DNA of 64,000 nt. Source: Branchiostoma floridae (lineage: Eukaryota > Chordata > Leptocardii > Amphioxiformes > Branchiostomatidae). The number at the start of each line of letters is the position of its first letter. Position 1 is the stretch's first letter. Made by a program: the position numbers and the translations under genes. Below are positions 16,531-62,512 of this stretch, in pieces. A model generated the notes under the pieces. That model searched no databases. It was not told the origin of the DNA and was given only the letters and a program-made list of their open reading frames with translations. The stretch lies in NCBI RefSeq assembly GCF_000003815.2, contig NC_049985.1, positions 24,390,981 through 24,454,980 of the forward strand. Reading direction: 5' to 3'.

Positions 16531-19386
16531 ATGTTCAACATGAAGACAAACATTGTGCTCTTCGTCATCGTTCGTCTTCTCGCTCTTTCCAACTTGACGT
16601 GCGGAGAAGTGCACCTGTCGGCCAAGATCGCAGAGAATGCCGACATTGGACAGCAAGTTATCCGCGTTCTACCAACCACACCGGGAGCCAATGAGGAAGT
16701 TCCGTGTGATATCATAGACGGAAACATCCACGGGCGCTTCGGTGTGACTCAGTACTGTGTGATTGTAGTCGTCCGTCCTTTAGACTTTGGTATAAAGCAA
16801 AGGTATAACCTGACTGTAAACGTCCCTGGGACAACCGAGACTCGTTTTGTCGACGTACAAGTCGAGGACGTGGACGGATATCCTCCTATCTACAACGACA
16901 CCTGCGAAATGCCAGTCGTAGCGAAAGACATAACACCCGGGCATGTTGCCTTTAACGCGCCAGTGCGTGCAGAGTACATGGAGAAAAGTGGAGGACTATT
17001 CACTTGGAAAGCTGACACCAAAAATCATCTGCAATCGCGAAGTGAGAAGATATCGATGTATACAAAGGTCTATACTTACTCCGGCAGTGACTGTGTCGCT
17101 GTAGTTCTGTTCGGTGTCTATAATGCGAAAGACGTGAGAGCAGTGACCAGTTTGTGGCTTTTACATGCGTGCTTTAGATGTTTTCATCCACTTGACCCGA
17201 AGCATGTCTTTGAAATACGGATAATCAACGGGAACCATATTCCATGTAACTCTTTAAGTGGTCTAGATTTGGCGCAAACGCACGTCACAAAGTCATATGC
17301 CTGGACCGGATACAAGTTCAAGTGGTTAATTTCTTTTCCACTACAGTCTACAGAAACGCAGCGCTTCATCTGCGAACTTCCCGGAGGGAAAGTTCCTGTG
17401 CACTTAAGCCGAGGTGGAAATGTTTTTGATGAAATATTTGTGACTAGACTGGAAACTAAAATCCAGCCTATCGGGTGTCCGCCAAACAAATACGGTTTGG
17501 CCTGTGAGCAGAACTGCACTTGTGAGAATGACGCCCGCTGCCATGGGTTGAACGGTGCCTGTAAGTGTCAGCCTGGGTGCAAAGGTGTCGTCTGTGACAT
17601 ACCTCACAGTACCGTTGCCATCATCGCGACTCCTAGCGACTCAAGACAGGTTTACATCAAGAGTTCGTTGACATTACACTGCAAGTCTTTCCATCTGGCT
17701 GTTGTGAAGATGGTTTGGACATTTCCTAATGGTACAAGAAGGAGGCTACTTGGCACTCAAGAAGACCAAATCAGGATCGAAAGCATCCAATCCGAACACA
17801 ACGGTACCTACACCTGTACTGGTATTACTGAAGACAAAACGGAAGTTACCGCCTATTACGAGGTACAAGCAGTCACCTGTCCTCCCGGCAAAAGAGGCAA
17901 ATTGTGCGAAGAGGACTGCAACTGTCTACACGGTACCAGCTGTGACCGGTGGGCCGGCTGTGTCTGTCTGCCGGGATGGACAGGAAAACTTTGTGAGACC
18001 AAATGCCCAGACGGCACGTACGGACGGGGCTGCAGCGGTGAGTGTTCATGTCAGAATGGTGCCGTCTGCGATCCTAGCGACGGTCAGTGTAACTGCACCG
18101 AGGGGTGGTATGGCATGCATTGTACCCGTCCATGTTTAAGTGGTCGGTACGGGTGGAGATGTCGGCAGGCCTGTGATTGTAAGAACAACGCCACATGCCA
18201 TCACGTAGATGGGAGCTGCACATGCGCGCCGCCTTGGACAGGACAGCGATGTGACGTCATCAAAGCCGAAACATCTCTGCTACCACTACAGATCTCCATA
18301 CCCCTTTTATTGACGCTGCTTGGTGTCTTGGCAGCATCAGTGGCTCTTTACAAATGGAGGACGTCCACGCAAATGAAACGAGACAAAGACCAAGAGGAGA
18401 CGCAGGTGTTATTCGAACTTCAAAGTATGGAAGAAAACCTCGCACAGAGTCTACAGCCTGGCTGGCTCAAACGGTGGGAGAGGAAGGCAAAAGATCTGAC
18501 TCTGGGTGATCTGATTGGTCAGGGCGCATTTTCGTTCATCCGGAAAGGGCGTTTACGTACCGGGAACGCCGACTTCCCTGTTGTGGCGGTCAAGTCCGTC
18601 CGTTCGACGGACAGACTGTGCTATCGAGCGTTCTATCGTGAAGCAGCAATGCTGGTTGCTTTGGACGAAAACGGCAAAGAACACAACCCTGATGGGCATC
18701 CCAACATTATCAAGCTGTTTGGTGTCATCACCAAGTCCACACCAAAGTGTATTCTCTTGGAATATGCTGCCAAAGGTGATCTCCTGCAACTTTTGAAACA
18801 GCAGAATACAGATAATGTTGCTCGTCTCCTGAGCAGCTTTCTCCGCTACGCAGTCCACACATCACGTGGTCTGAAGGAGCTCCGACGTCTGCGCATCGCT
18901 CACGGTGACGTGGCCGCTCGAAACGTCCTCATCAGTAGAGGCGACGTCGCCAAGCTGTCTGACTTCGGCCTGGCCCATGACGTGTACACCACAACCACGT
19001 ACATCTCCTCAGGTAAGAACGACGCGGAGGAACTCCTCCCTCTAAAGTGGATGGCTCTGGAGTCGCTGGAGACTCGCAAGTTCACGTGTGAGAGCGACAC
19101 GTGGTCGTTCGGCGTGCTGCTGTGGGAGATCGCCGCGTTCGGGGAGGAGCCCGCCTATCAGCACGAGATCCAGCTGAGTTGTCCCAGGTTGGTCGGGATC
19201 CTGAGACAGGGATATCGTCTGCAGAAACCACCCGGATGTCCGGACAGGCTGTATGACGTCATGAAGTCGTGTTGGCAGGAGGACCCGTCAGCCAGACCAG
19301 AGCCTGTAGACCTTGAGCAGAAGCTGACAGACTGTCGTGAAGAAATAGATCCACTGTTCGTCATTGAGAAGGTGACCACACTTTAG
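16531..19386 (+). CDS. RTK gene A: intronless cadherin-like/EGF/Ig receptor tyrosine kinase
   Basis: 951 codons, uninterrupted. The signal peptide is about residues 1-25. A cadherin-like repeat spans about 30-121 (AENADIG, RPLDFG..QRYNLTV, VQVEDVDGYPP). An unrecognised type 1 domain spans about 122-312. An EGF-like module is at 316-355, an Ig-like domain at 360-446 (C384, HNGTYTC), three EGF-like modules at 450-574, and the membrane span at about 586-606. The kinase is at about 656-935: GQGAFS loop 663-668, VAVK K688, helix-C E704, HGDVAARN 791-798, DFG 811-813, KWMALE 839-844, WSFGVLLWE. The tail is only about 15 residues and ends VTTL. The HRD arginine is glycine. EGF module 1 has cysteine (residue 350) where sister genes have tryptophan. 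It is expected at the cell surface as a tyrosine kinase; the ligand is unknown. Kinase motifs recall STYK1 and the EGF block recalls Tie receptors, both from memory only. Confidence 0.92.
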   Translation: MFNMKTNIVLFVIVRLLALSNLTCGEVHLSAKIAENADIGQQVIRVLPTTPGANEEVPCDIIDGNIHGRFGVTQYCVIVVVRPLDFGIKQRYNLTVNVPGTTETRFVDVQVEDVDGYPPIYNDTCEMPVVAKDITPGHVAFNAPVRAEYMEKSGGLFTWKADTKNHLQSRSEKISMYTKVYTYSGSDCVAVVLFGVYNAKDVRAVTSLWLLHACFRCFHPLDPKHVFEIRIINGNHIPCNSLSGLDLAQTHVTKSYAWTGYKFKWLISFPLQSTETQRFICELPGGKVPVHLSRGGNVFDEIFVTRLETKIQPIGCPPNKYGLACEQNCTCENDARCHGLNGACKCQPGCKGVVCDIPHSTVAIIATPSDSRQVYIKSSLTLHCKSFHLAVVKMVWTFPNGTRRRLLGTQEDQIRIESIQSEHNGTYTCTGITEDKTEVTAYYEVQAVTCPPGKRGKLCEEDCNCLHGTSCDRWAGCVCLPGWTGKLCETKCPDGTYGRGCSGECSCQNGAVCDPSDGQCNCTEGWYGMHCTRPCLSGRYGWRCRQACDCKNNATCHHVDGSCTCAPPWTGQRCDVIKAETSLLPLQISIPLLLTLLGVLAASVALYKWRTSTQMKRDKDQEETQVLFELQSMEENLAQSLQPGWLKRWERKAKDLTLGDLIGQGAFSFIRKGRLRTGNADFPVVAVKSVRSTDRLCYRAFYREAAMLVALDENGKEHNPDGHPNIIKLFGVITKSTPKCILLEYAAKGDLLQLLKQQNTDNVARLLSSFLRYAVHTSRGLKELRRLRIAHGDVAARNVLISRGDVAKLSDFGLAHDVYTTTTYISSGKNDAEELLPLKWMALESLETRKFTCESDTWSFGVLLWEIAAFGEEPAYQHEIQLSCPRLVGILRQGYRLQKPPGCPDRLYDVMKSCWQEDPSARPEPVDLEQKLTDCREEIDPLFVIEKVTTL

Positions 19387-21351: not shown

Positions 21352-24201
21352 ATGTTCAACATGAAGACAAACACTGTGTTCTTCGTCTTTATCGTTCGTC
21401 TACTCTTTTATACAAACTGGACGTACGGAGAGGTGCACCTGTCAGCCAAGATCGCAGAGAATGCCGACATTGGACAGCAAGTTTTCCGCGTTCTACCGAC
21501 CACACCGGGAGCCAATGAGGAAGTTCTGTGTGATATCATAGACGGAAACGTCCACGGGCGCTTCGGTGTGACTCACTTCTGTGTGATTGTAGTCGCCCGT
21601 CCTTTAGACTTTGGTATAAACCAAAGGTATAACCTGACTGTAAACGTCCCTGGGACAACTGAGACCCGTTTTGTTGCAGTACAAGTCGTGGACGTGGACG
21701 GATATCCTCCTATCTACAACGACACCTGCGAAATGCCAGTCCTTGGAAACGACAGGCCACCTGGGCATCTTGCTTTTAACGCATTGGTGCATGCAGAGTA
21801 CATGGATACAAGCGGAGGGCTATTTACTTGGAAAGCTGGCACAAAAGATTATCTGCAATCGCTAGGTCAGGAGATATCGATGTATACAAATGTCTATACT
21901 TACGCAAGCAGTGACTGTGTCGCTGTAGTTCTGCTCGGTGTCTCTCATGCAAACGATTTGAGAACGGTGACCAGTTTGTGGCTTTCACAAGCGTGCTTTA
22001 AATGTTTTGACCCATATAACTCCAAGCGTGTCTTTGAAATACAAAGAATCGACGAGGACGGTATTCCATGTAACTCTTTAAGTGTTCTAGATTTGGCGCA
22101 CACTGTCACAAAGTCTTATGTATGGACTAAATACAACTTTAAGCTGTTAATTTCTTTTCCACTAATGTCTACAAAAACGCAGCGCTTCGTATGCGAAATG
22201 CCACAAGGTCATGGAGGACGATTTCCTGTGTCCATCAGCAAAAGTGAAATTGTATTTGTTACTAGACTGGAATTTGAGACTCAGCCAGTCGGGTGTCCTC
22301 CGAGCAAATACGGTTTGACCTGTGAGCAGAACTGTACTTGTGAGAACGGCGCCCGCTGCCATGGGTTGAACGGTGCCTGTAAGTGTCAGCCTGGGTGGAA
22401 AGGTGTCGTCTGTGACATACCTCACAGTACCGTTGACATCATAGCGACACCTAGCGACTCGCGACGGATTCACAACCAGGGTTCGTTGACATTACACTGC
22501 AAGTCTTTCCATCTTTCTGTTGAGACAATGATTTGGACATTTCCTAATGGTACAAGAAGGTGGTTACGTGGCACTCAAGAAGACCAAATCAGGATCGAAA
22601 GCATCCAGTCTGATCACAACGGTACCTACACCTGTACTGTTATTACTGAAAACGAAATGGAAGTTACCGCGCGTTACGAGCTACAGGCAGTCAACTGTCC
22701 TCCCGACAAAGGAGGCGAAATGTGCGAAGACGACTGCAACTGTCTCCACGACGCAAGCTGTGACCGGTGGGCCGGCTGTATCTGTCCGCCGGGATGGACA
22801 GGAAACATTTGTGAGACCAAATGCCCAGACGGCACCTACGGACGGGGCTGCAACAGCGAGTGCCCATGTCAAAATGGCGCCGTCTGCGATCCTACCGACG
22901 GTCAGTGTAACTGCACCGAGGGGTGGTATGGTGTGCATTGTTCCCGTCCATGTTTAAGTGGTCGGTACGGGTGGAGATGTCGGCAGGCCTGTGAGTGTAA
23001 GAACAACGCCACATGCCATCACGTAGATGGGATCTGCACATGCGTGCCGCCCTGGACTGGACAGCGATGTGACGTCATCCAACCCGAAACATCGCTGCCA
23101 CTACAAATCTCCTTACCCCTTTCATTGACGCTGCTTGGTGTCTTGGCAGCATTAGTGGCTCTTTACAAATGGAGGACGACAAAACGATTGAGACGAGACG
23201 AAAACCAAGAGGAGACGCAGGTGTTACTCGAACTTAAAAGTATGGAAGAAAACCTCGCACAGAGTCTGCAGCCCGGCTGGCTCAAACGGTGGGAGAGGAA
23301 GGCAAAGGATCTGACTCTGGGCGATCTGATTGGTCAGGGTGCATTTTCATTTATCAGAGAAGGGCGTTTACGCACCAGTAATGCTGACGTCACAGTTGTG
23401 GCGGTCAAGTCCGTCCGTTCGAAGGACAGACTGTGCTATCGAGCTTTCTATCGCGATGCAGCAATGCTGGTTGCTTTGGACGAAAACGGCAAAGAACACA
23501 ACCCTGATGGGCATCCCAACATTATCAAGTTGCTTGGTGTCATCACAAGGTCCACACCAAAGTGGATTCTCTTGGAATATGCTGCCAATGGGGATCTCCT
23601 TCAACTTTTGAAACAGCAGAATAGAAATAACGTTGGTCGCCTACAGGGCAGGTTTCTCTGTTACGCAATCCACATATCAAGTGCCCTGAAGGAGCTCCGA
23701 CGTCTGCGCATCACTCACGGTGACGTGGCCGCTCGAAACGTCCTCATCAGTGGAGACGACGTCGCCAAGCTGTCTGACTTCGGTCTGGCCCATGACGTGT
23801 ACACCACAACCACCTACATCTCCTCGGGTAAGAACGACGCGGAGGAACTCCTCCCTCTGAAGTGGATGTCTCTGGAGTCGCTGGAGACTCGTAAGTTCAC
23901 GTGTGAGAGCGACATGTGGTCGTTCGGCGTGCTGCTATGGGAGATCGCCGCGTTCGGGGAGGAGCCCGACTATCAACACGAGATCCAGCTGAGTTGTCCC
24001 AGGTTAGTCGGGATCCTGAGACAGGGATATCGTCTGCAGAAACCACTCGGATGTCCGGACAGGCTGTATGACGTCATGAAGTCGTGTTGGCAGGAAGACT
24101 CGTCAGCCAGACCAGAGCCGGCAGAACTTGAGCAGAAGCTGACAGACTGTCGTGAAGAGATAGATCCACTGTTCGTCCTAGAAAAAGTGTCCACACTTTA
24201 G
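21352..24201 (+). CDS. RTK gene B: intact, type 2 ectodomain
   Basis: 949 codons with the same domain order as gene A. The variable domain is type 2 (AEYMDTSGGLFTWKAGTKD, SQACFKCFDPYNSK, PQGHGGRFPVSIS) and is nearly identical to that of gene J. EGF-like modules use CECKNNATC, and the membrane segment is about LPLSLTLLGVLAALVALY. In the kinase the helix-C residue is aspartate (FYRDAAML) where sisters have glutamate. The catalytic loop reads THGDVAARN, DFG is intact, KWMSLE replaces KWMALE, and the C terminus is VSTL. The start was chosen because MFNMK is shared by all full copies and follows an array-wide leader sequence. Confidence 0.92.
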   Translation: MFNMKTNTVFFVFIVRLLFYTNWTYGEVHLSAKIAENADIGQQVFRVLPTTPGANEEVLCDIIDGNVHGRFGVTHFCVIVVARPLDFGINQRYNLTVNVPGTTETRFVAVQVVDVDGYPPIYNDTCEMPVLGNDRPPGHLAFNALVHAEYMDTSGGLFTWKAGTKDYLQSLGQEISMYTNVYTYASSDCVAVVLLGVSHANDLRTVTSLWLSQACFKCFDPYNSKRVFEIQRIDEDGIPCNSLSVLDLAHTVTKSYVWTKYNFKLLISFPLMSTKTQRFVCEMPQGHGGRFPVSISKSEIVFVTRLEFETQPVGCPPSKYGLTCEQNCTCENGARCHGLNGACKCQPGWKGVVCDIPHSTVDIIATPSDSRRIHNQGSLTLHCKSFHLSVETMIWTFPNGTRRWLRGTQEDQIRIESIQSDHNGTYTCTVITENEMEVTARYELQAVNCPPDKGGEMCEDDCNCLHDASCDRWAGCICPPGWTGNICETKCPDGTYGRGCNSECPCQNGAVCDPTDGQCNCTEGWYGVHCSRPCLSGRYGWRCRQACECKNNATCHHVDGICTCVPPWTGQRCDVIQPETSLPLQISLPLSLTLLGVLAALVALYKWRTTKRLRRDENQEETQVLLELKSMEENLAQSLQPGWLKRWERKAKDLTLGDLIGQGAFSFIREGRLRTSNADVTVVAVKSVRSKDRLCYRAFYRDAAMLVALDENGKEHNPDGHPNIIKLLGVITRSTPKWILLEYAANGDLLQLLKQQNRNNVGRLQGRFLCYAIHISSALKELRRLRITHGDVAARNVLISGDDVAKLSDFGLAHDVYTTTTYISSGKNDAEELLPLKWMSLESLETRKFTCESDMWSFGVLLWEIAAFGEEPDYQHEIQLSCPRLVGILRQGYRLQKPLGCPDRLYDVMKSCWQEDSSARPEPAELEQKLTDCREEIDPLFVLEKVSTL

Positions 24202-25860: not shown

Positions 25861-28798
25861 ATGTTCAACATGAAGACAAACATTGTGCTCTTCGTCATCG
25901 TTCGTCTTCTCGCTGTTTCCAACTTCACGTACGGAGAAGTGCACCTGTCGGCCAAGATCGCAGAGAATGCCGACATTGGACAGCAAGTTATCCGCGTTCT
26001 ACCAACCACACCGAGAGCCAAGCAGGAAGTTCTGTGTGATATCATAGACGGAAATGTCCACGGGCGCTTCGGTTTGACTCACTTCTGTGTGATTGTAGTA
26101 GCCCGTCCTTTAGACTTTGGTATAAACCGAAGGTATAACCTGACTGTTAACGTCCCTGGGACAACTGAGACCCGGTTGATTGACGTACAAGTCGAGGACG
26201 TGGACGGATATCCTCCTATCTACAACGACACCTACGAAATGCCAGTCCTAGGAAAAGACATATCCTCCGGGCATCTTGGTTTTAACGCGTCAGTGCGTGC
26301 AGAGTACATGGAGAAAAGTGGAGGCCTATTCACTTGGAAAGCTGACACCAAAAATAATCTGCGATCGCGAGGTCAGGAGATATCGATGTAAACAAATGTC
26401 TATACTTACTCCGGCAGTGACTGTGCCGCTGTAGTTCTGTTCGGTGTCCATCATGCGAACGACGTAAGAACCTTGGCCAGTTTGTGGCTTTTACATGCGT
26501 GCTTTAGATGTTTTCATCCACTTGACTTGAAGCGTGTCTTTAAAATCCGGATAATCAACGGGGACCATATTCCATGTAACTCTTTAAGTGATCTGGATTT
26601 GGCGCACACGCACATCACAAAGTCATATGCCTGGACCGGATACAAGTTCAAGTGGTTAATTTCTTTTCCACTACAGTCTACAGAAACGCAGCGCTTTATC
26701 TGCGAACTTCCCGGAGGACAATTTCCTGTGCACTTCAGCCGAGGTAGAAATGTCTTCGATGAAGTATTTGGGACTAGACTGGAAACTGAGATCCAGCCAG
26801 TCGGGTGTCCGTCAAACAAATACGGTTTGGCCTGTGATCAGAACTGCACTTGTGAGAACGGCGCCCGCTGCCATGGATTGAACGGTGCCTGTAAGTGTCA
26901 GCCTGGGTGGAAAGGTGTCGTCTGTGACATACCTCACAGTACCGTTGCTATCATCGCGACCCCTAGCGACTCGCGACAGATTCACATCAGGGGTTCGTTG
27001 ACATTACAGTGCAAGTCTTTCCATCTGGCTGCTAAGAAGTTATTTTGGACATTTCCTAATGGTACAAGAAGAAGGCTACGTGGGACTCAAGACGAAATCA
27101 GGATCGAAAGCATTCAGTCCGAACACAACGGTACCTACACCTGTACTGTTATTACTGAAGACGAAACGCGCGTTACGAGCTACAGGCAGTCAACTGTCCT
27201 CCAGGCAAAAGAGGCGAATTGTGCGAAGATGACTGCAACTGTCTCCATGGTGCCAGCTGTGACCGGTGGGCCGGCTGTGTCTGTCCGCCGGGATGGACAG
27301 GAAAAATTTGTGAGACCAAATGCCCAGACGGTACGTACGGACGGGGCTGCAGCGGTGAGTGCACATGTCAGAATGGTGCCTTCTGCGATCCTAGAGACGG
27401 TCAGTGTAACTGCACCGAGGGGTGGTATGGTATGTATTGTACCCGTCCATGTTTAAGTGGTCGGTACGGGTGGAGATGTCGGCAGGCCTGTGACTGTAAG
27501 AACAACGCCACATGTCATCACGTAGATGGCAGCTGCACATGCGCGCCGCCCTGGACCGGACGGCGATGTGACGTCATCCAACCCGAAACATCTCCGCTGC
27601 CCCTACAAATCTCCATACCTCTTTTATTGACGCTGCTTGGTGTCTTGGTAGCATTACTGGCTCTTTACAAATGGAGGACGACCACTCGGATGAGACAAGA
27701 CGAAGACCAAGAGGAGACACAGGTGTTACTCGAACTTAAAAGTATGGAAGAAAACCTCGCACAGAGTCTACAGCCTGGCTGGCTCAAACGGTGGGAGAGG
27801 AAGGCAAAGGATCTGACTCTGGGCGATCTGATTGGACAGGGCGCATTTTCGTTTATCAGAGAAGGGCGGTTACGCACCGCTAACGCTGAAGTCACAGTTG
27901 TGGCGGTCAAGTCCGTCCGTTCAAGGGACAGACTGTGCTATAGAGCGTTATATCGTGAAGCAGCAATGCTGGTTGCTTTGGACGAAAACGGCAAAGAACA
28001 CAACAATGATGGGCATCCCAACATTATCAAGCTGTTTGGTGTCATCACCAAGTCCACACCAAAGTGTATTCTCTTGGAATATGCTGCCAAAGGTGATCTG
28101 CTGCAACTTTTGAAGCAGAAGAATACAGATAATGTTGCTCGTCTCCTAGGCAGCTTTCTCCGCTACGCAGTCCACACATCACGTGGTCTGAAGGAGCTCC
28201 GACGTCTGCGCATCGCTCACGGTGACGTGGCCGCCCGAAACGTCCTCATCTTTGGAGACGACGTCGCCAAGCTCTCAGACTTCGGTCTGGCCCATGACGT
28301 GTACACGGTCTGGCCCATGACGTGTACACCACAACCACGTACATCTCCTCAGGTAAGAACGACGCAGAGGAACTCCTCCCTCTGAAGTGGATGGCTCTGG
28401 AGTCGCTGGAGACTCGCAAGTTCACATGCGAGAGCGACACGTGGTCGTTCGGCGTGCTGCTGTGGGAGATCGCCGCGTTCGGGGAGGAGCCCGACTATCA
28501 GCACGAGATCCGGCTGAGTTTTCCCAGGTTGGTCGGGATCCTGAGACAGGGATATCGTCTGCAGAAGCCACCCGGATGTCCGGACAGGCTGTATGACGTC
28601 ATGAAGTCGTGTTGGCAGGAGGAACCACCAGCCAGACCAGAGCCTGTAGAACTTGAGCAGAAGCTGACAGACTGTCGTGAACAAATAGATTCACTGTTCA
28701 TCCTCGAGAAGGTGCCACACTTTAGAAATAGAGCCAGTCTTAGGCAGATATTAATGTGTGGGCTCAACTCTAAATCATTATACGACTCCTTATTTTGA
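25861..28798 (+). pseudogene. RTK gene C: pseudogene with four lesions, type 1 ectodomain
   Basis: Leader and first codons match gene A. Lesion 1 is a nonsense TAA at 26389-26391, where sisters have TAT. Reading resumes in the same frame. Lesion 2 is a 10-bp deletion at about 27166, at the end of the Ig domain, shifting the frame. Lesion 3 is a 23-bp tandem duplication (28283-28305 and 28306-28328) just after the DFG codons. Lesion 4 is a 1-bp loss at about 28714 that destroys the family stop at 28723 and the VTTL tail; reading runs on to 28798. Between lesions the EGF modules, membrane segment and kinase are well preserved, so inactivation is recent. The membrane segment (GVLVALLALYKWRTTT) closely matches gene J. 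Confidence 0.88.
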
Positions 28799-30719: not shown

Positions 30720-30950
30720 CTACGACAGGTCATGCGCCTGATCGCGGTTTGTCCTGGTTTGACCTCTTTGCATGGGTGTAAATAAGTGCCCGTTGTGCAA
30801 CAAAAAGACCTCAGACCTACATAATGTTTATACTCTTTCACATCTACAGGTTTTGCCCTGTACAACTATGTACATATTTCGTGCATGGCAAAATGACAAC
30901 GAGCGCTGTAGCTTTCGAAACATTTGCAAGGTTTGATCCGTTTATTTGTG
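30720..30950 (-). repeat. Inverted copy of the D/E upstream block
   Basis: The reverse complement of this stretch (ctacataatgtttata..., gcatggcaaaatgac, tttcgaaacatttgc) matches 31806-32010 and 37740-37945, with moderate divergence. It forms an inverted pair with about 850 bp between the arms. Confidence 0.65.
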
Positions 30951-32081
30951 GCTGCCTTTTTAACAGATCAACTTGATCCCATTAGCTAACCCCACCATGT
31001 GATAGCCCAGTTTCTCTCCTTTAAATGGATACAAAAGTCACCGGGTTAATTTATGGAGCAATGTTTTGCCTCGAAATTATGTGCGAACATACGCAAATCA
31101 CGGTGGTGACGTTTCAGTCTGGTTGTAGCTACCCACGCACACTACCCTGTGTTTAGACCGTATTCTTATACTTTTCACATAGTGTCACAGATCTCATTTC
31201 TTGGTAAGAGAAGCGGAATGGGTGCGGCTGTCACATGCAATATAATAAGTGACATGATGATAGACAAGTGTACATTGACACAGGGTTTTAGTACAAAATA
31301 AGAATTTTAAAAAATCATTAGTTTTCAAGTCAGTCTGTTTCGAACTCCTGGTCCGAACCTGGGTTCGAACGATGGAAACCAGCCGGTACGTTCCATTTTT
31401 CGTGCCGCGGGGGTCAGTCCTAATGTTGCAAGTTCAACCAGCGTTTGGAAAAGTTAACAAAACTAACAGCTCATGTCTTGCCATCGCAAATAGAATTCCT
31501 GAAACCTACCAAATTAAAACTGACATTATCCAAAAGCCAGAATAAATGGGATTCATGTGCAAGCAAACTGATATCAATACTTCATGTCAGAGAGTTGTAT
31601 AGCATAGTGAAAGATCAGTGTGTGAGGTTTGTCGTTCGAAAAAAAGACGCTGGGAATTTGACATGTTGTTACATAATTTCGGGGCAAAAAGTTGCTCCTC
31701 AAATTAACATGGAAACTTTGGTATCAATTTAAAGGTGAGGAACTATGCTATCACGCTGTGGGGTTAACTAATGGGATCAAGGTGAACTGTAAAAAAGACA
31801 GCTACCAATACACGGACGGAAAATTGCCAATGTTTCGAAAGCAACAGCGTTCACTGTCATTTTACAATGCACGAAATATGTACATGGTTGTACTGGGCAA
31901 AACCTGTAGATGTGAAAAAGTATAAACATTATGTAGGTCTGAGGTCTTTTTGTTGCACAACAGGCAGTTGTTTTCACGCAGCGGGGTCAAATCGGGTCGC
32001 GACAAAAGCCGTATCTTAGAGAATAACGCGTTCTGGGGTGACCTGCGGTTCGACTGGTCTCATCACAAAAGAGGAACCCAA

Positions 32082-32094
32082 AGTTCAAAGGTCA
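32082..32094 (+). promoter_or_regulatory. DR1-type motif upstream of D
   Basis: AGTTCA-A-AGGTCA, 53 bp before the codon after the leader, at the same relative position as in A, C and E. No TATA box is present at 130-140 bp; a tataaac lies at 31921. Confidence 0.4.
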
Positions 32095-32146
32095 GATTTA
32101 AAAGAGGAAATGGGGAAGACCTTTAAATCTGGACGCGTGTGAAGCC

Positions 32147-33578
32147 ATGTTCAACATGGAGACAAACACTGTGTTCTTCGTCGTCATCGTTCGTGTTCTC
32201 TTTCTTTCCAACTGGACGTACGGAGAGAGGCACCTGTCGGCCAAGATCGCAGAGAATGCCGACATTGGACAGCAAGTTTTCCGCGTTCTACCGACCACAC
32301 CGAGATCCAATGAGGAAGTTCCGTGTGATATCACAGAAGGAAACGTCCACGGGCGCTTCAGTGTGACTCACTTCTGTGTGATTGTAGTAGCCCGTCCTTT
32401 AGACTTTGGTATAAACCAAAGGTATAACCTGACTGTAAACGTCCCTGGGACAACCGAGACACGTTTTGTTGACATACAAGTCGAGGACGTGGACGGATAT
32501 CCTCCTATCTACAACGACACCTGCGAAATGCCAGTCCTAGGAAAAGACATATCCTCCGGGCATGTTGCCTTTAACGCGTCACTGCGTGCAGAGTACATGG
32601 AGAAAAGTGGAGGACTATTCACTTGGAAAGCTGACACCAAAAATTATCTGCAATCGCGAGGNNNNNNNNNNNNNNNNNNNNNNNNNNNNNNNNNNNNNNN
32701 NNNNNNNNNNNNNNNNNNNNNNNNNNNNNNNNNNNNNNNNNNNNNNNNNNNNNNNNNNNNNCACTGACGTCACGGTTGTGGCGGTGAAATCAGTTCGTTC
32801 AAAGGACAGACTGTGCTATCGAGCTTTCTATCGTGAAGCAGCAATGCTGGTTGCTTTGGACGAAAACGGCAAAGAACACAACCCTGATGGGCATCCCAAC
32901 ATTATCAAGCTGTTTGGTGTCATCACCAAGTCCACACCAAAGTGTATTCTCTTGGAATATGCTGCCAAAGGTGATCTCCTGCAACTTTTGAAACAGCAGA
33001 CTGGAAATAACGTTGCTTGTCTACTGGGTAGCTTTCTCCGTTACGCAGTCCACATATCACGTGCCTTGAAGGAGCTCCGACGTCTGCGCATCGCTCACGG
33101 TGACGTGGCCGCTCGAAACGTCCTCATCAGTGGAGACGACGTCGCCAAGCTGTCTGACTTCGGTCTGGCCCATGACGTGTACACCACAACCACGTACATC
33201 TCCTCATGTAAGAACGACGCGGAGGAACTCCTCCCTCTGAAGTGGATGGCTCTGGAGTCGCTGGAGACTCGCAAGTTCACGTGCGAGAGCGACACGTGGT
33301 CGTTCGGCGTGCTGCTGTGGGAGATCGCCGCGTTCGGGGAGGAACCCGACTATCAGCACGAGATCCAGCTTTGTCCCAGGTTGGTCGGGATCCTGAGACA
33401 AGGATATCGTCTGCAGAAACCACCCGGATGTCCGGACAGGCTGTATGACGTCATGAAGTCGTGTTGGCAGGAGGACCCGTCAGCCAGACCAGAGCCGGTA
33501 GAACTTGAGAAGAAGCTGACAGACTGTCGTGAAGAAATAGATCCCCTGTTCATCCTCGAGAAGGTGACCACACTTTAG
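32147..33578 (+). CDS. RTK gene D: interrupted by assembly gap, type 1 ectodomain
   Basis: The 5' part, 32147-32661, encodes the signal peptide, cadherin-like repeat and start of the type 1 domain (172 codons). The 3' part, 32762-33578, encodes the kinase from TDVTVVAVKSV to the tail EKVTTL. By comparison with gene E about 1.5 kb is missing where 100 Ns stand, so the apparent frame relation across the gap means nothing. The kinase keeps VAVK, YREAAM, HGDVAARN and DFG. One codon is lost near 33370 (QLCPRL where sisters have QLSCPRL) without a frameshift. Whether the gene is intact cannot be told. The 5' end is nearly identical to gene E. Confidence 0.8.
32662..32761. other. Assembly gap (100 N)
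   Basis: Exactly 100 unknown bases, the usual placeholder for a gap of unknown size. It lies inside an RTK copy, as expected when near-identical tandem repeats collapse or break during assembly. Confidence 0.98.
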
Positions 33579-48274: not shown

Positions 48275-48426
48275 TGAGGAAGGGGACTGACCACGTTAAA
48301 TGTGTACACAGTTTACGCCTTCGTCATGTAGCTGCAGTCACCCACGACGTCACAAAAAAGGAACAAAAAGGTAAGACACGATAGAGGAACTTGGGAATGT
48401 CTGTTAAGCTGGACGTCTGTGAAGCT

Positions 48427-51276: not shown

Positions 51277-52478
51277 AAATCGAATAATCTTTTAGGAAAC
51301 AAAAAAAAGTGAAGGTTACAGTCCATATTTCAAAAGACTTTTCGCTCATCTCGTTAGGTGTACACTATTCTTCTAGGCCACTGTACCGATGAAAGCCAAT
51401 CATGAGACGTTTACCATACAAACTATCTTAAATTCCTTGTATTTTTGTTAAATTATAAAGATAATATCTTTGGTCAAAACAAGTAGATATTCTTCTTGAA
51501 ATGCTGTCAGTGACATAGTCTATTTATTCTCTTTGATAGGTTTTTACATCTACTGCGATATGCAAAGTATATTACATTTAATGTATCTGATATGTAGTGG
51601 CATTTCCTTGGCCATGTCTGTAACGGTTTATAAACTCGTTTTTCTTGCCACAATCAAGCTTTAAGTAGCCGGACTGTTTACAATGATAAATCGCAATTAC
51701 CTTAAAAGGTTAATTTAGGTTATGGCTTACTGATGTGTTTTTTTTATTCTTTCTTCATCTTCATTAATTTACTGATTAAGTGAATTAGTTGTGGTTATGT
51801 AACGTTATATATTATTAAGTGATACCAAGAGATACAAAATGTAACGAAGCCAGTCTTATTTTATTCATTGGCGTGCTGTTTACTGACATTTCATCAAATA
51901 TAATTTGTCTTCCGCAACTACACTCTTAAGAATGAATCTGGTATGTGTCTTCATTTCTGTAGAATGACAATTACACGGTATGAGCAGCATATTTTACCAT
52001 ACATGGCAATGCAATTCGTACAAAAAGCCCTGAGTATAGGGATATGCAATGGAATATCTGAAAAGGCTTGCGTTGTATTGAACTATGTAACATACCCAGA
52101 GGTCTTAGTCATGCATGGCCCACTGGATTTGAAGAAGTACAAACATCGCCTTTTGTTTTGAAGTTCCGTTTGGACTCAACTAAACAGTGACGACTACTAG
52201 CGGGGTATAAAGACTTCTAGCCACATTTTTTGCTTACCTTCGCCATCCCACAGCCAATGGGATGCGTGTATTTGACCTCCTTATTAAAAAAAAAAAACGA
52301 AGTATACACCTACTAGTACTTCAATAACCACTGTAGCTGGTTTTCTATATTCTAGTATGTAAAACTATGGTCCAACAAAACATAGGGACCTGAAAGTTAT
52401 CTTGCGCATAAAACGTTAACCGTATGCTATGTTGATATTTTGCCACACGTTTTGTTCTCAATATTTCATGTACATTTT
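51277..52478. other. Spacer G-H
   Basis: Very similar to spacer B-C (24202-25395) until it is cut off at 'catgtacattttgg', where kinase sequence of H begins. It therefore lacks the leader, promoter and ATG of a normal unit. No insertion was seen. Confidence 0.65.
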
Positions 52479-53400
52479 GGCTCAAACGGTGGGAGAGGAA
52501 GGCAAAGGATCTGACTCTGGGCGATCTGATTGGTCAGGGCGCATTTTCATTTTCAGAGAAGGGCGGTTACGCACCGCTAACGCTGACGTCACAGTTGTGG
52601 CGGTCAAGTCCGTCCGTTCGAAGGACAGACTGTGCCATCGAGCTTTCTATCGTGAGGCAGCAATGCTGGTTGCTTTGGACGAAAACGGCAAAGAACACAA
52701 CCCTGATGGGCATCCCAACATTATCAAGCTGTTTGGTGTCATAACCAGGTCTAGGCCAAGGTGTATTCTCTTGGAATATGCTGCCAAAGGTGATCTCCTG
52801 CAACTTTTGAAACAGCAGACTAAAAACAACGTTGCTTGTCTACAAGGCAGCTTTCTCCGCTACGCAGTCCACATATCACGTGCCCTGAAGGAGCTCCGAC
52901 GTCTGCGCATCGCTCACGGTGACGTGGCCGCCCGAAACGTCCTCATCAGTGGAGACGACGTCGCCAAGCTGTCTGACTTCGGTCTGGCCCATGACGTGTA
53001 CACCACATCCACGTACATCTCCTCAGGTAAGAACGACGCGGAGGAACTCCTCCCTCTGAAGTGGATGGCTCTGGAGTCGCTGGAGACTCGTAAGTTCACG
53101 TGCGAGAGCGACACGTGGTCGTTCGGCGTGCTGCTGTGGGAGATCGCCGCGTTCGGGGAGGAGCCCGACTATCAGCACGAGTTCCGACTGAGTTGTCCCA
53201 GATTGGTCGGGATCCTGAGACAGGGATATCGTCTGCAGAAACCAACAGAATGTCCGGACAGACTGTATGACGTCATGAAGTCGTGTTGGCAGGAGGACCC
53301 GTCAGCCAGACCAGAGCCGGCAGAACTTGAGAAGAAGCTGACAGACTGTCGTGATGAAATAGATCCACTGTTCGTCATCGAGAAGGTGACCACACTGTAG
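52479..53400 (+). pseudogene. RTK fragment H: kinase-only remnant fused to spacer
   Basis: Starts abruptly in the juxtamembrane codons (LKRWERKAKDL region) directly after spacer DNA; signal peptide, ectodomain and membrane span are missing. A 1-bp loss near 52549 puts the glycine-loop codons out of frame with the rest. An ORF from an ATG in spacer DNA (52429) reads the first 26 kinase codons in the wrong frame and then enters the true frame at REGRLRTANAD. From there VAVK, YREAAM, HGDVAARN, DFG and KWMALE are intact to the VTTL tail and stop at 53398-53400. A soluble product would lack the glycine loop, so this is probably dead. Confidence 0.85.
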
Positions 53401-55010: not shown

Positions 55011-55161
55011 GAAGAAGTGGACTGACCACATAAAACGTGTACACAGTTTCCGCCTTCGTCATGTAGCTGCAGTCAGCCACGACGTCACAAAAGAGGAACA
55101 GAAAGGTAAGACACGATAGAGGAAATTGGGAATACCTGTTAAGCTGGACGTCTGTGAAGCT

Positions 55162-58017
55162 ATGTTCAACATGAAGACAGTCACTGTACTCTTCGTCGCC
55201 ATCGTTCTTCTACTCGTTTATACCAACTGGGCATACGGAAAGGTGCACCTGTCGGCCAAGATCGCAGAGAATGCCGACATTGGACAGCAAGTTATCCGCG
55301 TTCTACCGACCACACCGGGAGCCACGGAGGAAGTTCTGTGTGATATCATAGACGGAAACGTCCACGGGCGCTTCGGTGTGACTCAGTACTGTGTGATTGT
55401 AGTCGTCCGTCCTTTAGACTTTAGTATAAACCAAAGGTATAACCTGACTGTAAACGTCCCTGGGACAACCGAGACCTGTTTTGTTGACGTACAAGTCGAG
55501 GACGTGGACGGATATTCTCCTATCTACACCGAAACCTGCGAAACGCCAGTTCTAGCAAACGACAGGGCACCTGCCCAGCTTGCTTTCAACATGGCAGTGA
55601 CTGCGGAATACATGGGAAAAAGTGGAGAGCTATTCATGCTGAAAACTGACACCAAAAATTATCTCCAACCGGGACGTCAGGAGATATCGATGTATACCAA
55701 GGCCCAAAGTTACCCCAGCGGTGACCGTCACGCTTTGTTTGTAGTCGGTGTCCGTCACGCGAACGACTTGAGAACGGTGAACGGTTTATGGCTTTCATAT
55801 AATCGTTGCTTCCAATGCTTTGACCCACTTGACCCCGAGCATTTCTTTCAAATCCGAATCATCCATGATGACTATATTTCATGTGACTTTTTATGTGGCC
55901 TGGATTCAACTATCATTGACAGGGCTTGGCAGTCTTATGTCTGGAATAAATACAAGTTCAAGCTTTTAATTCATTTCAAAGTACGATCTACAGAAAAACA
56001 CCGCTTCGTCTGCAAACTTCCACAGAGAAGACCAATCTCTGTGTTAAGGAGACAAAATCATGCATATGATGAAATATTAATAAGTAGCCTGGAATTTGAG
56101 ATGCAGCTTATCGGTTGTCCACCGAACAAATACGGTTTGACCTGTAAGCAGAACTGCACTTGTGAGAATGTCGCCCGCTGCCATTGGTTGAACGGTGCCT
56201 GTAAGTGTAAGCCTGGGTGGAAAGGTGTCGTCTGTGACATACCTCACAGTACCGTTGCCATCATCGCGACCCCTAGCGACTCGCGACAGATTTACATCAA
56301 GGGTTCGTTGACATTAAACTGTAAATCTTTCCATTTGACTGTTGAGACGATGATTTGGACATTTCCTAATGGAACAAAAAGGAGGCTACAAAGAACTCAA
56401 GAGGATCAAATCAGGATCGAAAGCATCCAGTCCGAACACAACGGTACCTACACCTGTACTGTTATTACTGAAGACGAAACGGAAGTTCACGCGCGTTACG
56501 AGCTACGGGCAGTCAACTGTCCTTCCGGCAAAAGAGGTGAATTGTGCGAAGACGACTGCAACTGTCTCCATGGTGCCAGCTGTGACCGGTGGGCCGGCTG
56601 TGTCTGTCCGCCGGGATGGACAGGAAAATTTTGTGAGACCAAATGCCCAGACGGTACGTACGGACGGGGCTGCAGCGGTGAGTGCCCATGTCAGAATGGT
56701 GCCTTCTGCGATACTAGTGACGGTCAGTGTGACTGCACCGAGGGGTGGTATGGTATGTATTGTACCCGTCCGTGTTTAAGTGGTCGGTACGGGTGGAGGT
56801 GTCGGCAGGCCTGTGACTGTAAGAACAACGCCACATGCCATCACGTAGATGGGAGCTGCACATGCGCGCCACCTTGGACAGGACAGCGGTGTGACGTCAT
56901 CCAACCCGAAACATCACTGCTACCACTACAGATCTCTATACCCCTTTCATTGACGCTGCTTGGTGTCTTGGCAGCATTAGTGGCTCTTTACAAATGGAGG
57001 ACATCTACGCAAATGAAAAGAGACGAAGACCAAGAGGAGACGCAGGTGTTACTCGAACTTAAAAGTATGGAAGAAAACCTCGCACAGAGTCTACAGCCCG
57101 GCTGGCTCAAACAGTGGGAGAGGAAGGCAAAGGATCTGACTCTGGGCGATCTGATTGGTCAGGGCGCATTTTCGTTTATCAGAGAAGGGCGTTTACGCAC
57201 CGCTAACGCTGACGTCACAGTTGTGGCGGTCAAGTCCGTCCGTTCGAAGGACAGACTGTGTTATCGAGCTTTCTATCGCGAAGCAGCAATGCTGGTTGCT
57301 TTGGACGAAAACTGTAAAGAACAGAACAATGATGGGCATCCTAACATTATCAAGCTGTTTGGTGTCATCACCAGGTCTAGGACAAGGTGTATTCTCTTGG
57401 AATATGCTGCCAAAGGTGATCTCCTGCAACTTTTGAAACAGCAGAATAGAAATAACATTTCTTGTCTAGTGTGCAGCTTTCTCCCCTACGCAGTCCACAT
57501 ATCACGTGCCCTGAAGGAGCTTCAACGTCTGCGCATCGCTCACGGTGACGTGGCCGCCCGAAACGTCCTTATCAATGAAGACGACGTCGCCCATGACGGT
57601 CTGGCCCATGACGTGTACACCACAACCACGTACATCTCATCAGGTAAGAACGACGCGGAGGAACTCCTCCCTCTGAAGTGGATGGCTCTGGAGTCGCTGG
57701 AGACTCGCAAGTTCACGTGCGAGAGCGACACGTGGTCGTTCGGCGTGCTGCTGTGGGAGATCGCCGCGTTCGGGGAGGAGCCCGACTATCAGCACGAGAT
57801 CCGACTGAGTTGTCCCAGGTTGGTCGGGATCCTGAGACAGGGATATCGTCTGCAGAAGCCACTCGGATGTCCGGAAAGGTTATATGACGTCATGAAGTCG
57901 TGTTGGCAGGATTACCCGTCAGCCAGACCAGAGCCGGTAGAACTTGAGCAGAAGCTGATAGACTGTCGTGAAGAAATAGATCCACTGTTCGTCCTCGAGA
58001 AGGTGACCACACTTTAG
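55162..58017 (+). CDS. RTK gene I: type 3 ectodomain, kinase lacks DFG (probable pseudokinase)
   Basis: 951 codons, open throughout. The ectodomain is type 3 (YNRCFQCFDPLDPEHFFQIR, VWNKYKFKLLIHFKVRS). EGF module 1 is altered (CKQNCTCENVARCHWLN). In the kinase the glycine loop, VAVK, YREAAM and HGDVAARN are intact. The segment VAKLSDFGLAHD of sisters is replaced by VAHDGLAHD (57592-57600 codes HDG). The Mg-binding aspartate is thus histidine and three residues are lost. It also has PYAVH for RYAVH and LQRLRIAHGD. The tail is VTTL. The ectodomain and frame are preserved, so a signalling-dead or scaffold receptor is possible; recent loss before decay is the alternative. An upstream TTG-led extension (55126) is not used here as the start. 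Confidence 0.9.
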   Translation: MFNMKTVTVLFVAIVLLLVYTNWAYGKVHLSAKIAENADIGQQVIRVLPTTPGATEEVLCDIIDGNVHGRFGVTQYCVIVVVRPLDFSINQRYNLTVNVPGTTETCFVDVQVEDVDGYSPIYTETCETPVLANDRAPAQLAFNMAVTAEYMGKSGELFMLKTDTKNYLQPGRQEISMYTKAQSYPSGDRHALFVVGVRHANDLRTVNGLWLSYNRCFQCFDPLDPEHFFQIRIIHDDYISCDFLCGLDSTIIDRAWQSYVWNKYKFKLLIHFKVRSTEKHRFVCKLPQRRPISVLRRQNHAYDEILISSLEFEMQLIGCPPNKYGLTCKQNCTCENVARCHWLNGACKCKPGWKGVVCDIPHSTVAIIATPSDSRQIYIKGSLTLNCKSFHLTVETMIWTFPNGTKRRLQRTQEDQIRIESIQSEHNGTYTCTVITEDETEVHARYELRAVNCPSGKRGELCEDDCNCLHGASCDRWAGCVCPPGWTGKFCETKCPDGTYGRGCSGECPCQNGAFCDTSDGQCDCTEGWYGMYCTRPCLSGRYGWRCRQACDCKNNATCHHVDGSCTCAPPWTGQRCDVIQPETSLLPLQISIPLSLTLLGVLAALVALYKWRTSTQMKRDEDQEETQVLLELKSMEENLAQSLQPGWLKQWERKAKDLTLGDLIGQGAFSFIREGRLRTANADVTVVAVKSVRSKDRLCYRAFYREAAMLVALDENCKEQNNDGHPNIIKLFGVITRSRTRCILLEYAAKGDLLQLLKQQNRNNISCLVCSFLPYAVHISRALKELQRLRIAHGDVAARNVLINEDDVAHDGLAHDVYTTTTYISSGKNDAEELLPLKWMALESLETRKFTCESDTWSFGVLLWEIAAFGEEPDYQHEIRLSCPRLVGILRQGYRLQKPLGCPERLYDVMKSCWQDYPSARPEPVELEQKLIDCREEIDPLFVLEKVTTL

Positions 58018-59536: not shown

Positions 59537-59659
59537 CGTGTACACAGTTTCCGCCTTCGTCAAGTAGCTGCAGTCAAACAAGACGTCACAAAAGAGGAAC
59601 AGAAAGGTAAGACACGATAGAGGAAATTGGGAACACCTGTTAAGCTGATCTGTGAAGCT

Positions 59660-62512
59660 ATGTTCAACATGAAGACAGTCACTGTATTCTTCGTCGTCAT
59701 CGTTCGTCTTCTCGTTTTTTCCAACTGGACATACGGAAAGGTGCACCTGTCGGCCAAGATCGCAGAGAATGCCGACATTGGACAGCAAGTTATCCGCGTT
59801 CTACCGACCACACCGGGGGCCACAAAGGAAGGTCCGTGTGATATTATAGAAGGAAACGTCCACGGGCGCTTCGGTGTGACTCAATACTGTGTGATTGTAG
59901 TAGCCCGTCCTTTAGACTTTGGTATAAACCAAAGGTATAACCTGACTGTAAACGTCCCTGGGACAACCGAGACCCGTTTTGTTGACATACAAGTCGAGGA
60001 CGTGGACGGATATCCTACTATCTACAACGACACCTGTGAAATGCCAGTCCTTGGAAACGACAAGACACATGGGCAGCTTGCTTTTAACGCATTGGTGCAT
60101 GCAGAGTACATGGATACAAGCGGAGGGCTATTTACTTGGAAAGCTGGCACAAAAGATTATCTGCAATCGCTAGGTCAGGAGATATCGATGTATACAAATG
60201 TCTATACTTACGCAAGCAGTGACTGTGTCGCTGTAGTTCTGCTCGGTGTCTCTCATGCAAACGATTTGAGAACGGTGACCAGTTTGTGGTTTTCACAAGC
60301 GTGCTTTAGATGTTTTGACCCGTTTAACTCCAAGCGTGTCTTTGAAATACAAATAATCGACGAGGACCGTATTCCGTGTAACTCTTTAAGTGGTCTGGAT
60401 TTGGCGCACGCTGTCACAAAGTCTTATGTATGGACTAAATACAACTTTAAGCTGTTAATTTCTTTTCCACTAATGTCTACAAAAACGCAGCGCTTCGTAT
60501 GCGAAATTCCACAAGGTCATGGAGGACGATTTCCTGTGTCCATCAGCAAAAAAGAAAATGTATTTGTTACTAGACTGGAATTTGAGACTCAGCCAGTCGG
60601 GTGTCCTCCGAGCAAATACGGTTTGACCTGTGAGCAGAACTGCACTTGTGAGAACGGCGCCCGCTGCCATGGGTTGAACGGTGCCTGTAAGTGTCAGCCT
60701 GGGTGGAAAGGTGTCGTCTGTGACATACCTCACAGTACCGTTGCCATCATAGCGACCCCTAGCGACTCGCGACGGATTCACAACCAGGGTTCGTTGACAT
60801 TACACTGCAAGTCTTTCCATCTTTCTGTTGAGACGATGATTTGGACATTTCCTAATGGTACAAGAAGGTGGTTACGTGGCACTCAAGAAGACCAAATCAG
60901 GATCGAAAGCATCCAGTCTGATCACAACGGTACCTACACCTGTACTGTTATTACTGAAAACGAAATGGAAGTTACCGCGCGTTACGAGCTACAGGCAGTC
61001 AACTGTCCTCCCGACAAAAGAGGCGAATTGTGCGAAGACGACTGCAACTGTCTCCACGACGCAAGCTGTGACCGGTGGGCCGGCTGTATCTGTCCGCCGG
61101 GATGGACAGGAAACATTTGTGAGACCAAATGCCAAGACAGCACCTACGGACGGGGCTGCAACAGCGAGTGCCCATGTCAAAATGGCGCCGTCTGCAATCC
61201 TACCGACGGTCAGTGTAACTGCACCGAGGGGTGGTATGGTGTGCATTGTTCCCGTCCATGTTTAAGTGGTCGGTACGGGTGGAGATGTCGGCAGGCCTGT
61301 GAGTGTAAGAACAACGCCACATGTCATCACGTAGATGGGAGCTGCACATGCGCGCCGCCCTGGACCGGACGGCGATGTGACGTCATCCAACCCGAAACAT
61401 CTCCGCTGCCACTACAAATCTCCATACCTCTTTTATTGACGCTGCTTGGTGTCTTGGTAGCATTACTGGCTCTTTACAAATGGAGGACGACCACTCAGAT
61501 GAGACAAGACGAAGACCAAGAGGAGACGCAGGTGTTACTCGAACTTAAAAGTATGGAAGGAAACCTCGCACAGAGTCTACAGCCCGGCTGGCTCAAACGG
61601 TGGGAGAGGAAGGCAAAGGATCTGACTCTGGGCGATCTGATTGGACAGGGCGCATTTTCGTTCATCCGGGAAGGGCGTTTACGCACCGCTAACGCCAACG
61701 TTACAGTTGTGGCAGTCAAGTCCGTCCGTTCAAAGGACAGACTGTGCTATCGAGCTTTCTATCGCGAAGCAGCAATGCTGGTTGCTTTGGACGAAAACTG
61801 CAAAGAACACAACAATGATGGGCATCCTAACATTATCAAGTTCCTTGGTGTCATCACCAAGTCCACACCAAAGTGTATTCTCTTGGGATATGCTGCCAAA
61901 GGGGATCTCCTGCAACTTTTGAAACACCAGAATAGAAAAAACATTGCTTGTCTAGTGGGCAGCTTTCTCCGTTACGCAGTCCACATATCACGTGCCCTGA
62001 AGGAGCTTCGACTTCTGCGCATCGCTCACGGTGACGTGGCCGCCCGAAACGTCCTTATCAGTGAAGACGACGTCGCCAAGCTGTCAGATTTCGGTCTGGC
62101 CCATGACGTGTACACCACAACCACCTACATCTCCTCAGGTAAGAACGACGCGGAGGAACTCCTCCCTCTGAAGTGGATGGCTCTGGAGTCGCTGGAGACT
62201 CGCAAGTTCACGTGCGAGAGCGACACGTGGTCGTTCGGTGTGCTGCTGTGGGAGATCGCCGCGTTCGGGGAGGAGCCCGCCTATCAGCACGAGATCCAGC
62301 TGAGTTGTCCCAGGTTGGTCGGGATCCTGAGACAGGGACATCGTCTGCAGAACCCAGTCGGATGTCCGGACAGGCTGTATGACGTCTTGAAGTCGTGTTG
62401 GCTGGAGGACCCGTCAGCCAGACCAGAGCCGGCAGAACTTGAGCAGAAGCTGACAGACTGTCGTGAAGAAATAGATCCACTGTTCATCCTCGAGAAGGTA
62501 ACCACACTTTAG
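59660..62512 (+). CDS. RTK gene J: intact mosaic, type 2 ectodomain
   Basis: 950 codons. The first 130 codons and the upstream DNA are like gene I (MFNMKTVTV, TTPGAT). From about LAFNALVHAEYMDTS to the last EGF module the sequence is almost identical to gene B, including CNSECPCQNG, GVHCSRPC and CECKNN. From SCTCAPPWTGRRC through the membrane span it matches C (GVLVALLALYKWRTTT). The kinase has F-like features (IIKFLGVITKSTPK, VGSFLRYAVHISRALKEL). The motifs GQGAFS, VAVK, YREAAM, HGDVAARN and DFG are intact. The hinge-region LLEY of sisters is LLGY here, and DVLKSCWLED replaces DVMKSCWQED. The tail is VTTL. This looks like a gene built by conversion. Confidence 0.92.
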   Translation: MFNMKTVTVFFVVIVRLLVFSNWTYGKVHLSAKIAENADIGQQVIRVLPTTPGATKEGPCDIIEGNVHGRFGVTQYCVIVVARPLDFGINQRYNLTVNVPGTTETRFVDIQVEDVDGYPTIYNDTCEMPVLGNDKTHGQLAFNALVHAEYMDTSGGLFTWKAGTKDYLQSLGQEISMYTNVYTYASSDCVAVVLLGVSHANDLRTVTSLWFSQACFRCFDPFNSKRVFEIQIIDEDRIPCNSLSGLDLAHAVTKSYVWTKYNFKLLISFPLMSTKTQRFVCEIPQGHGGRFPVSISKKENVFVTRLEFETQPVGCPPSKYGLTCEQNCTCENGARCHGLNGACKCQPGWKGVVCDIPHSTVAIIATPSDSRRIHNQGSLTLHCKSFHLSVETMIWTFPNGTRRWLRGTQEDQIRIESIQSDHNGTYTCTVITENEMEVTARYELQAVNCPPDKRGELCEDDCNCLHDASCDRWAGCICPPGWTGNICETKCQDSTYGRGCNSECPCQNGAVCNPTDGQCNCTEGWYGVHCSRPCLSGRYGWRCRQACECKNNATCHHVDGSCTCAPPWTGRRCDVIQPETSPLPLQISIPLLLTLLGVLVALLALYKWRTTTQMRQDEDQEETQVLLELKSMEGNLAQSLQPGWLKRWERKAKDLTLGDLIGQGAFSFIREGRLRTANANVTVVAVKSVRSKDRLCYRAFYREAAMLVALDENCKEHNNDGHPNIIKFLGVITKSTPKCILLGYAAKGDLLQLLKHQNRKNIACLVGSFLRYAVHISRALKELRLLRIAHGDVAARNVLISEDDVAKLSDFGLAHDVYTTTTYISSGKNDAEELLPLKWMALESLETRKFTCESDTWSFGVLLWEIAAFGEEPAYQHEIQLSCPRLVGILRQGHRLQNPVGCPDRLYDVLKSCWLEDPSARPEPAELEQKLTDCREEIDPLFILEKVTTL

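Follow-up and report, generated by a model that had tools for sequence, protein, structure and literature searches.

The analysed stretch of 64,000 nt, hereafter the window, corresponds to C7:24390981-24454980 in a genome of 513.4 Mb and 431 contigs. ORF calling revealed seven single-frame genes in the same orientation (plus strand), encoding proteins of 949-1054 aa and spanning positions 16531-62512. The first, copy A (16531-19386; 951 aa), was recognized from its ORF and Pfam matches as an intact intronless receptor tyrosine kinase (RTK), and copies B, E, F, G, I and J align to it from end to end with 79-90% identity. Copies B (21352-24201; 949 aa) and E (38079-40949; 956 aa) are intact and share the class of their variable outer domain, described below, with copies J and A, respectively. 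Copy F (42152-45316) is also intact; upstream of its family start at 42452, and in frame with it, lies part of a second signal-peptide unit. The same intact state was found for copies G (48391-51276; family start 48427) and J (59627-62512; family start 59660), the latter having a variable domain that differs from that of copy B by a pS of 0.03. Copy I (55126-58017; family start 55162) has an open frame but lost its DFG motif: it reads VAHDGLAHD at the site where the other six open copies have DFG, and is by its sequence probably a pseudokinase.

Three further copies lie between these genes on the same strand. The initial annotation had counted seven open and three damaged copies; all seven open frames were found where it placed them, and damage was confirmed for only two of the other three. 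In copy C (25861-28714), an in-frame stop codon breaks the reading frame, which also changes twice, the second time at a 23-bp tandem duplication (28283-28329, plus strand). Copy H (52478-53400) is 5'-truncated, retains only the kinase part and contains one frame change. Copy D (32147-33578), in contrast, is merely interrupted by an assembly gap of 100 N (32662-32761) and is open on either side of it. As had been claimed, the open copies contain no intron, in that each of the seven frames reads through at the level of the DNA. The window copies have flanking DNA in common, with homology of 0.8-1.5 kb in many pairs, and thus arose by DNA-level duplication. Outside the window, at a distance of ~90 kb (C7:24543906-24545806), there is another copy that appears to be split in frame. 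The neighbouring gene has one macro-domain exon. Searches for tRNAs and Rfam families gave no match in the 64,000-nt window.

Pfam searches on the seven frames bore out the domain order proposed previously: a cadherin repeat, an unassigned (variable) domain, EGF, Ig, three EGFs, a membrane span and a tyrosine kinase. The signal peptide, the ectodomain and the single membrane span were recognized by eye in the sequence. In copy A, the signal peptide is followed by the cadherin repeat (residues 27-122), the variable domain (residues 123-314; positions 16897-17472, plus strand) with four cysteines conserved family-wide, EGF1 (315-357), Ig (358-448), EGF2-4 (449-577), the transmembrane/juxtamembrane part (578-650) and the kinase (651-935). 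Matches to PK_Tyr were obtained in all seven open copies (E 1.8e-55 to 4.3e-64), and the Ig and EGF matches in these copies were weak to moderate. The cadherin repeat stayed below the Pfam gathering score in all seven, and one of 15 family members scanned passed it (L038, 31.0 vs 28.8 bits). Since a 25-member family profile matched solved cadherins, including a single CELSR1 repeat at E 1.5e-8, we take the cadherin repeat of the family to be real, as judged by profile comparison.

The motifs VAVK and HGDVAARN are present in all seven open window copies and DFG in six; the catalytic motifs looked for are thereby kept in six window copies, with copy D interrupted by the gap. The window kinases are of the non-RD type (HGD), and a kinase need not become inactive through the absence of this arginine alone. 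HGD was found in the 21 sampled members nearest to those of the window (C7, C8, C11, C15), and HGD or HCD recurs in a group of members from C18, C8:13.99 Mb and C13. Members sampled from C12 and from distant clades have HRD, with the exception of a C12 member in which this motif could not be located. Across the 37 family proteins examined, DFG is present in 36 and a class I PDZ-ligand-like C-terminus in 23.

The window array represents one cluster among many in an expanded family of type I RTKs. Using copy A as a query, we found homologues on C1, C5, C7, C8, C11, C12, C15, C17 and C18, mostly in open frames of ~850-1000 aa (a lower bound, with 48 scored of 681 candidates). A C12 query gave at least 53 matches (49 scored of 722 candidates), and a kinase-family search at least 141 (134 scored of 1265 candidates). 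Homologues on other contigs at 41-59% identity to copy A, and more distant ones too, are likewise intronless. Eight further places were fetched; seven of them each contain a single open frame (889-980 aa) encoding the family ectodomain and kinase, and the remaining one is mostly N. In the intact members examined, one uninterrupted frame of ~890-1050 aa encodes the protein, in some with fewer EGFs after the Ig domain.

A probe with the EGF1 motif returned 150 rows (the tool's counts being lower bounds), of which 114 were kept; as rows were hand-chosen by frame as well, this count leans towards long frames. The retained places fall into 22 clusters and 34 single places (56 in all). Frames of at least 850 aa contain 77 of the 114, on 14 contigs (13 besides C7), frames of 300-849 aa contain 31 and shorter frames the other six. 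The 36 rows left out were weak or secondary EGF hits and include six short-frame hits of 47-50 bits on C3, C4, C8 and C14; C4:3811392 (47.3 bits) was retained, lying inside a 923-aa frame. At one of the left-out short-frame hits, C3:2848056, the EGF exon was the sole match within 7 kb.

The initial annotation had suggested searching for an intron-bearing parent, and short-frame EGF1 hits led to a multi-exon relative at C6:18.267-18.296 Mb. Profile searches assigned two exons of this gene to cadherin, one to EGF, one to Ig (E 2.6e-4) and eight to the kinase, with no significant profile match for the three later EGFs; a second Ig piece, a transmembrane exon and exons resembling the variable domain were recognized by eye only. 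Its kinase contains seven GT-AG introns (phases 1, 1, 0, 0, 2, 1, 2) that splice cleanly in silico. The last of them, of phase 2, is located in the helix that precedes the CW motif and fits the phase-2 position at helix alphaH that an excerpt of a published study gives as common to longDE kinases (PMC8662651). Because of this fit to a reported common position, the C6 introns appear to be ancient, and the absence of introns a derived state. A second multi-exon gene, on C200, has EGF, Ig and weak kinase (E 0.009) pieces in separate frames.

A tree of 28 kinases rooted with EGFR, from which 14 close paralogs had been left out and which contained three outgroups only, united the sampled intronless genes in one clade (support 83). 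The C6 gene, whose kinase sequence contained some letter errors, was sister to this clade with a joint support of 100, and RET and FGFR3 formed a group (89) outside both. The kinase tree proposed previously, with STYK1, Tie and other RTKs, was thus realized in part: the family kinase was placed outside RET plus FGFR3, with RET, FGFR3 and EGFR as the other RTKs in the sample. Among the kinases compared, the family kinase is nearest to RET/FGFR. None of the C6 kinase introns occurs in the full-length members sampled from each clade. One member on C13 has a single GT-AG phase-0 juxtamembrane intron; since this member nests well inside the intronless clade, a gain is simpler, and the intron was likelier gained than retained.

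The pattern sought for a retrogene was found in that the family lacks introns and the related C6 gene has several. The proposal of a retrocopy followed by tandem duplication stood up in these respects, given the multi-exon relative, the single intronless clade and the shared flanks, but the retroposition itself did not take place in this array, because the homologues on other contigs are intronless too. The simplest account of the sequences is one retroposition at the root, before the whole family arose, and the sister position of the multi-exon C6 gene supports it well. Around a dispersed copy on C15, the only one examined in this respect, no shared direct repeat of at least 9 bases was present, and hence no target-site duplication; poly-A runs of at least 9 occur near only two of the seven window copies, far from the stop. 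The case for retroposition therefore rests on introns and phylogeny. The missing poly-A and target-site marks are weak evidence against a retrogene, as such marks decay with age. Compared with eleven C8 copies, the homology of the C15 copy ends no more than ~135 bp from the ATG and ~155 bp from the stop. As a single case, this hints that a later move was RNA-borne, although flank homology is also short between some C8 copies that are widely spaced on one chromosome.

Other origins were weighed against this account. One retrocopy at the window locus followed by local tandem duplication would explain the flank homology inside the window; we rejected this narrow form as barely conceivable given the intronless homologues (41-59% identity) on other contigs and the EGF1-containing frames of 850 aa or more that occur on 13 contigs other than C7. 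Introns might instead have been lost singly, or the family might never have had any, with no founding retroposition. The lack of a clear poly-A or target-site duplication where these were looked for suits such a history, and the phase-0 juxtamembrane intron of C13 could be its remnant. We nevertheless regard it as distinctly improbable: the kinase of the sister gene is interrupted by seven introns, one of which fits a reported common position, sampled full-length members of each clade lack all seven, and the nesting of C13 makes a gain simpler. That the ORF is the cargo of a spreading mobile element is more doubtful still, and we consider it very improbable. The scatter of the 114 retained hits over 56 places or clusters, 34 of them single, would fit such spreading, as would the homology of C15 to the eleven C8 copies that stops near the frame ends; clustered copies, however, share ordinary flanks, and the sole dispersed copy examined closely, that on C15, is not bordered by a shared direct repeat of at least 9 bases.

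The initial annotation missed the main feature of these genes, a divergent outer domain. The variable domain is membrane-distal, follows the cadherin repeat and comprises ~190 aa. Four cysteines characterize it among 31 domains compared, two of them invariant and two nearly so. A profile of these 31 domains gave only three matches in the PDB, all to myomesin and at E 0.16 or worse. Member-by-member Pfam searches of the domain reached a best E of 0.006, the families being unrelated and each appearing in one member. None of these PDB or Pfam matches is convincing. A structure model of the cadherin repeat and variable domain from the seven window proteins had a mean pLDDT of 32.6 and was unusable.

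In all four clusters tested, the synonymous divergence of the variable domain is ~2-4 times that of the remainder of the same genes. Pooled pS for the domain versus the rest was 0.349 vs 0.139 in C7 (seven genes), 0.278 vs 0.101 in C8 (eight genes) and 0.540 vs 0.131 in C12 (six genes), where misalignment may inflate the figure; the C8 and C12 tests used fetched full-length genes, not every member. The synonymous difference rises near residue 120 and falls near residue 315 in these three clusters, in which the edges were mapped. In C10, a distant cluster of four genes, domain dS was 0.39-0.49 vs 0.20-0.23 for the rest in five of six pairs, while the sixth pair, of two non-adjacent genes, showed the reverse (0.076 vs 0.198). 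Non-synonymous and amino-acid change is also higher in the variable domain. At p<0.05/45, domain pS was significantly higher in 16 of 21 C7 pairs, 16 of 28 C8 pairs and 14 of 15 C12 pairs, and no single pair in these clusters was significantly lower after correction. Domain pS fell below that of the rest in 13 of the 18 non-significant pairs.

The domain does not diverge at a uniformly raised rate: the C7 domains form three classes (A/E, B/J and F/G/I), with a domain dS of 0.03-0.31 within and 0.34-0.85 between classes, compared with 0.11-0.18 for the rest in every pair. Inside a few classes, the similarity of the domain roughly equals that of the rest or exceeds it. In C12, the domain and rest trees reject each other (AU 1.7e-6 and 1.1e-6); in C8, the rest data reject the domain tree (AU 1e-80), while the reverse is weak (AU 0.016, SH 0.064). 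The two C7 trees share their main splits (AU 0.035 and 0.12), so that this case is one of branch length, not conflict. High divergence between classes, yet a similarity to the rest within them, indicates old variable-domain classes on a homogenized frame. Averaged over C7, C8 and C12, dN/dS was 0.44-0.52 overall, revealing purifying selection in these three clusters, and 0.43-0.62 for the variable domain, which points to constraint; positive selection is not demonstrated. GC3 is lower in the variable domain of 20 of 20 cluster genes, and was rejected as a mark of conversion because 14 of 15 other genes show the same (two genes could not be parsed).

The contrast could also arise if the domain simply evolves faster, by relaxed constraint or as a mutational hot spot, without any exchange or recognition role. 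Its somewhat lax dN/dS (0.43-0.62), its lower GC3 in most genes examined and the main splits shared by the C7 trees are compatible with this. Relaxed constraint, however, does not raise dS, and a hot spot would lift all pairs, whereas 13 of the 18 non-significant pairs are lower in the domain and one C10 pair departs in that direction (dS 0.076 vs 0.198). The conservation of the four cysteines among 31 sequences and the tree conflict in C8 and C12 likewise oppose this reading, which we consider unlikely.

We consider it probable that, as a whole, the family is best explained as a retroposed RTK that was multiplied and carries variable-domain classes on a homogenized frame, serving recognition. 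The spliced mRNA of an intron-bearing RTK would have been reverse-transcribed and inserted once, after which tandem duplication and moves to new chromosomes would have raised the number of intronless genes. Within a cluster, the cadherin repeat, EGFs, kinase and flanks would be kept similar by gene conversion and unequal exchange, with older variable-domain classes being retained and sometimes swapped as cassettes. In the protein, the variable domain may form a recognition head on a stalk of cadherin repeat, Ig and EGFs, and bind a ligand or partner. The target may be a microbe, self or non-self, or a partner cell. Ligand binding would cluster the receptors and activate the common kinase, which would signal with the help of the PDZ-ligand-like C-terminus in many members. 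Diversified recognition, a role deduced from sequence, most probably explains why the domain classes are kept. More tentatively, the ~100 intronless receptors might constitute a germline-diversified recognition system derived from the retroposed RTK, with one signalling frame and old, distinct classes of a presumably undescribed four-cysteine domain that are shuffled by gene conversion between neighbours; a function as an innate immune, self/non-self or cell-identity set is possible.

Large RTKs are normally multi-exon and few. If the proposed history is true, the growth of a retroposed RTK into ~100 single-exon receptors with a variable outer domain would be, for an invertebrate chordate, an uncommon way of diversifying its receptors. 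How a variable domain evolves under gene conversion could further be tested in this family, and kinase surveys that depend on introns may overlook or misclassify such genes. The contrast in variable-domain divergence in all four clusters is new here, and an excess divergence of outer domains between neighbours is as might be expected of recognition receptors.

D'Aniello et al. (2008) reportedly described an amphioxus RTK expansion of the RET/FGFR kind (TIE / FGFR / PDGFR / RET; EXTK), and are said to have used kinase-domain intron positions and counted 118 kinases. The intronless family may be part of this EXTK expansion. Among the matches listed in a search of the open-access literature, no title or abstract start described the family. 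For B. floridae, 337 retrocopies, 235 of them intact, are given in an excerpt of a published survey, in the main text of which the word kinase is absent (PMC3136929).

With respect to established classes, the family resembles RET in the cadherin-like repeat of its ectodomain, and RET is the best single-stretch match among solved chains for copy A and for the multi-exon C6 kinase; for member L034, FGFR3 scores above RET. The ectodomain of RET comprises four cadherin-like domains and a cysteine-rich domain, and is not known to contain Ig or EGF. By profile and Pfam matches, the family has one cadherin repeat, with EGF and Ig instead, and differs in this from the RET class; in the tree with three outgroups only, the RET kinase groups with FGFR3 (89) outside the clade of the family and the C6 gene (100). 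A likeness to TIE lies in the combination of Ig and EGF modules with a tyrosine kinase. TIE receptors have FN3 repeats and several Ig domains, and no FN3 family was listed by Pfam for the 15 proteins scanned, which sets them apart from TIE.

A different kind of likeness exists to the clustered protocadherins, in which, according to an excerpt of a published analysis, the distal repeats differ and the proximal ones are homogenized by gene conversion (PMC1852091). As far as that excerpt describes them, both systems consist of tandem large single-exon ectodomain units with a divergent distal and a homogenized proximal part. Unlike protocadherins, the genes of the family each encode a kinase of their own and vary in a part that is no cadherin repeat, and no shared constant exon is known. 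The clustered protocadherins are the closest parallel in evolutionary regime: the family works alike without being a member.

Copies D and E, of which the former is interrupted by an assembly gap, share a stretch of 98% identity (window positions 31481-32657 and 37409-38589) that adjoins this gap; the stretch may reflect either a recent duplication or an assembly effect. Inverted repeats of ~300 bp with 84-85% identity lie between copies C, D and E (window 30758-31082, 31671-31977 and 37599-37923) and perhaps represent a small mobile element. In the intact copy F, the signal-peptide region is partly duplicated, in frame, upstream of the start codon position common to family members (window 42152-42452).

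Elsewhere in the genome, the C8 cluster (C8:24055573-24094103) contains two classes of the membrane-distal variable domain in alternation. The genes follow the order b a b a a b a b, a pattern suggestive of duplication of a two-gene unit. The C13 member exhibits one GT-AG phase-0 intron in the interval between membrane span and kinase (L031:2098-2433), which may be either a remnant or a gain. The kinase of the C6 member L051 (C6:10359500-10364000) does not have an in-frame hinge region, and its C-terminal part resumes in a different frame ~120 bp further on; this frame switch perhaps corresponds to a young intron, or the locus may be a pseudogene. Long N runs break both the C7 family member L050 and L040, a kinase locus of unassigned family on C16.

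In the region neighbouring the array, an exon at window 1860-2237 encodes a macro domain (E 1.4e-10) and appears to belong to a PARP14-like gene.
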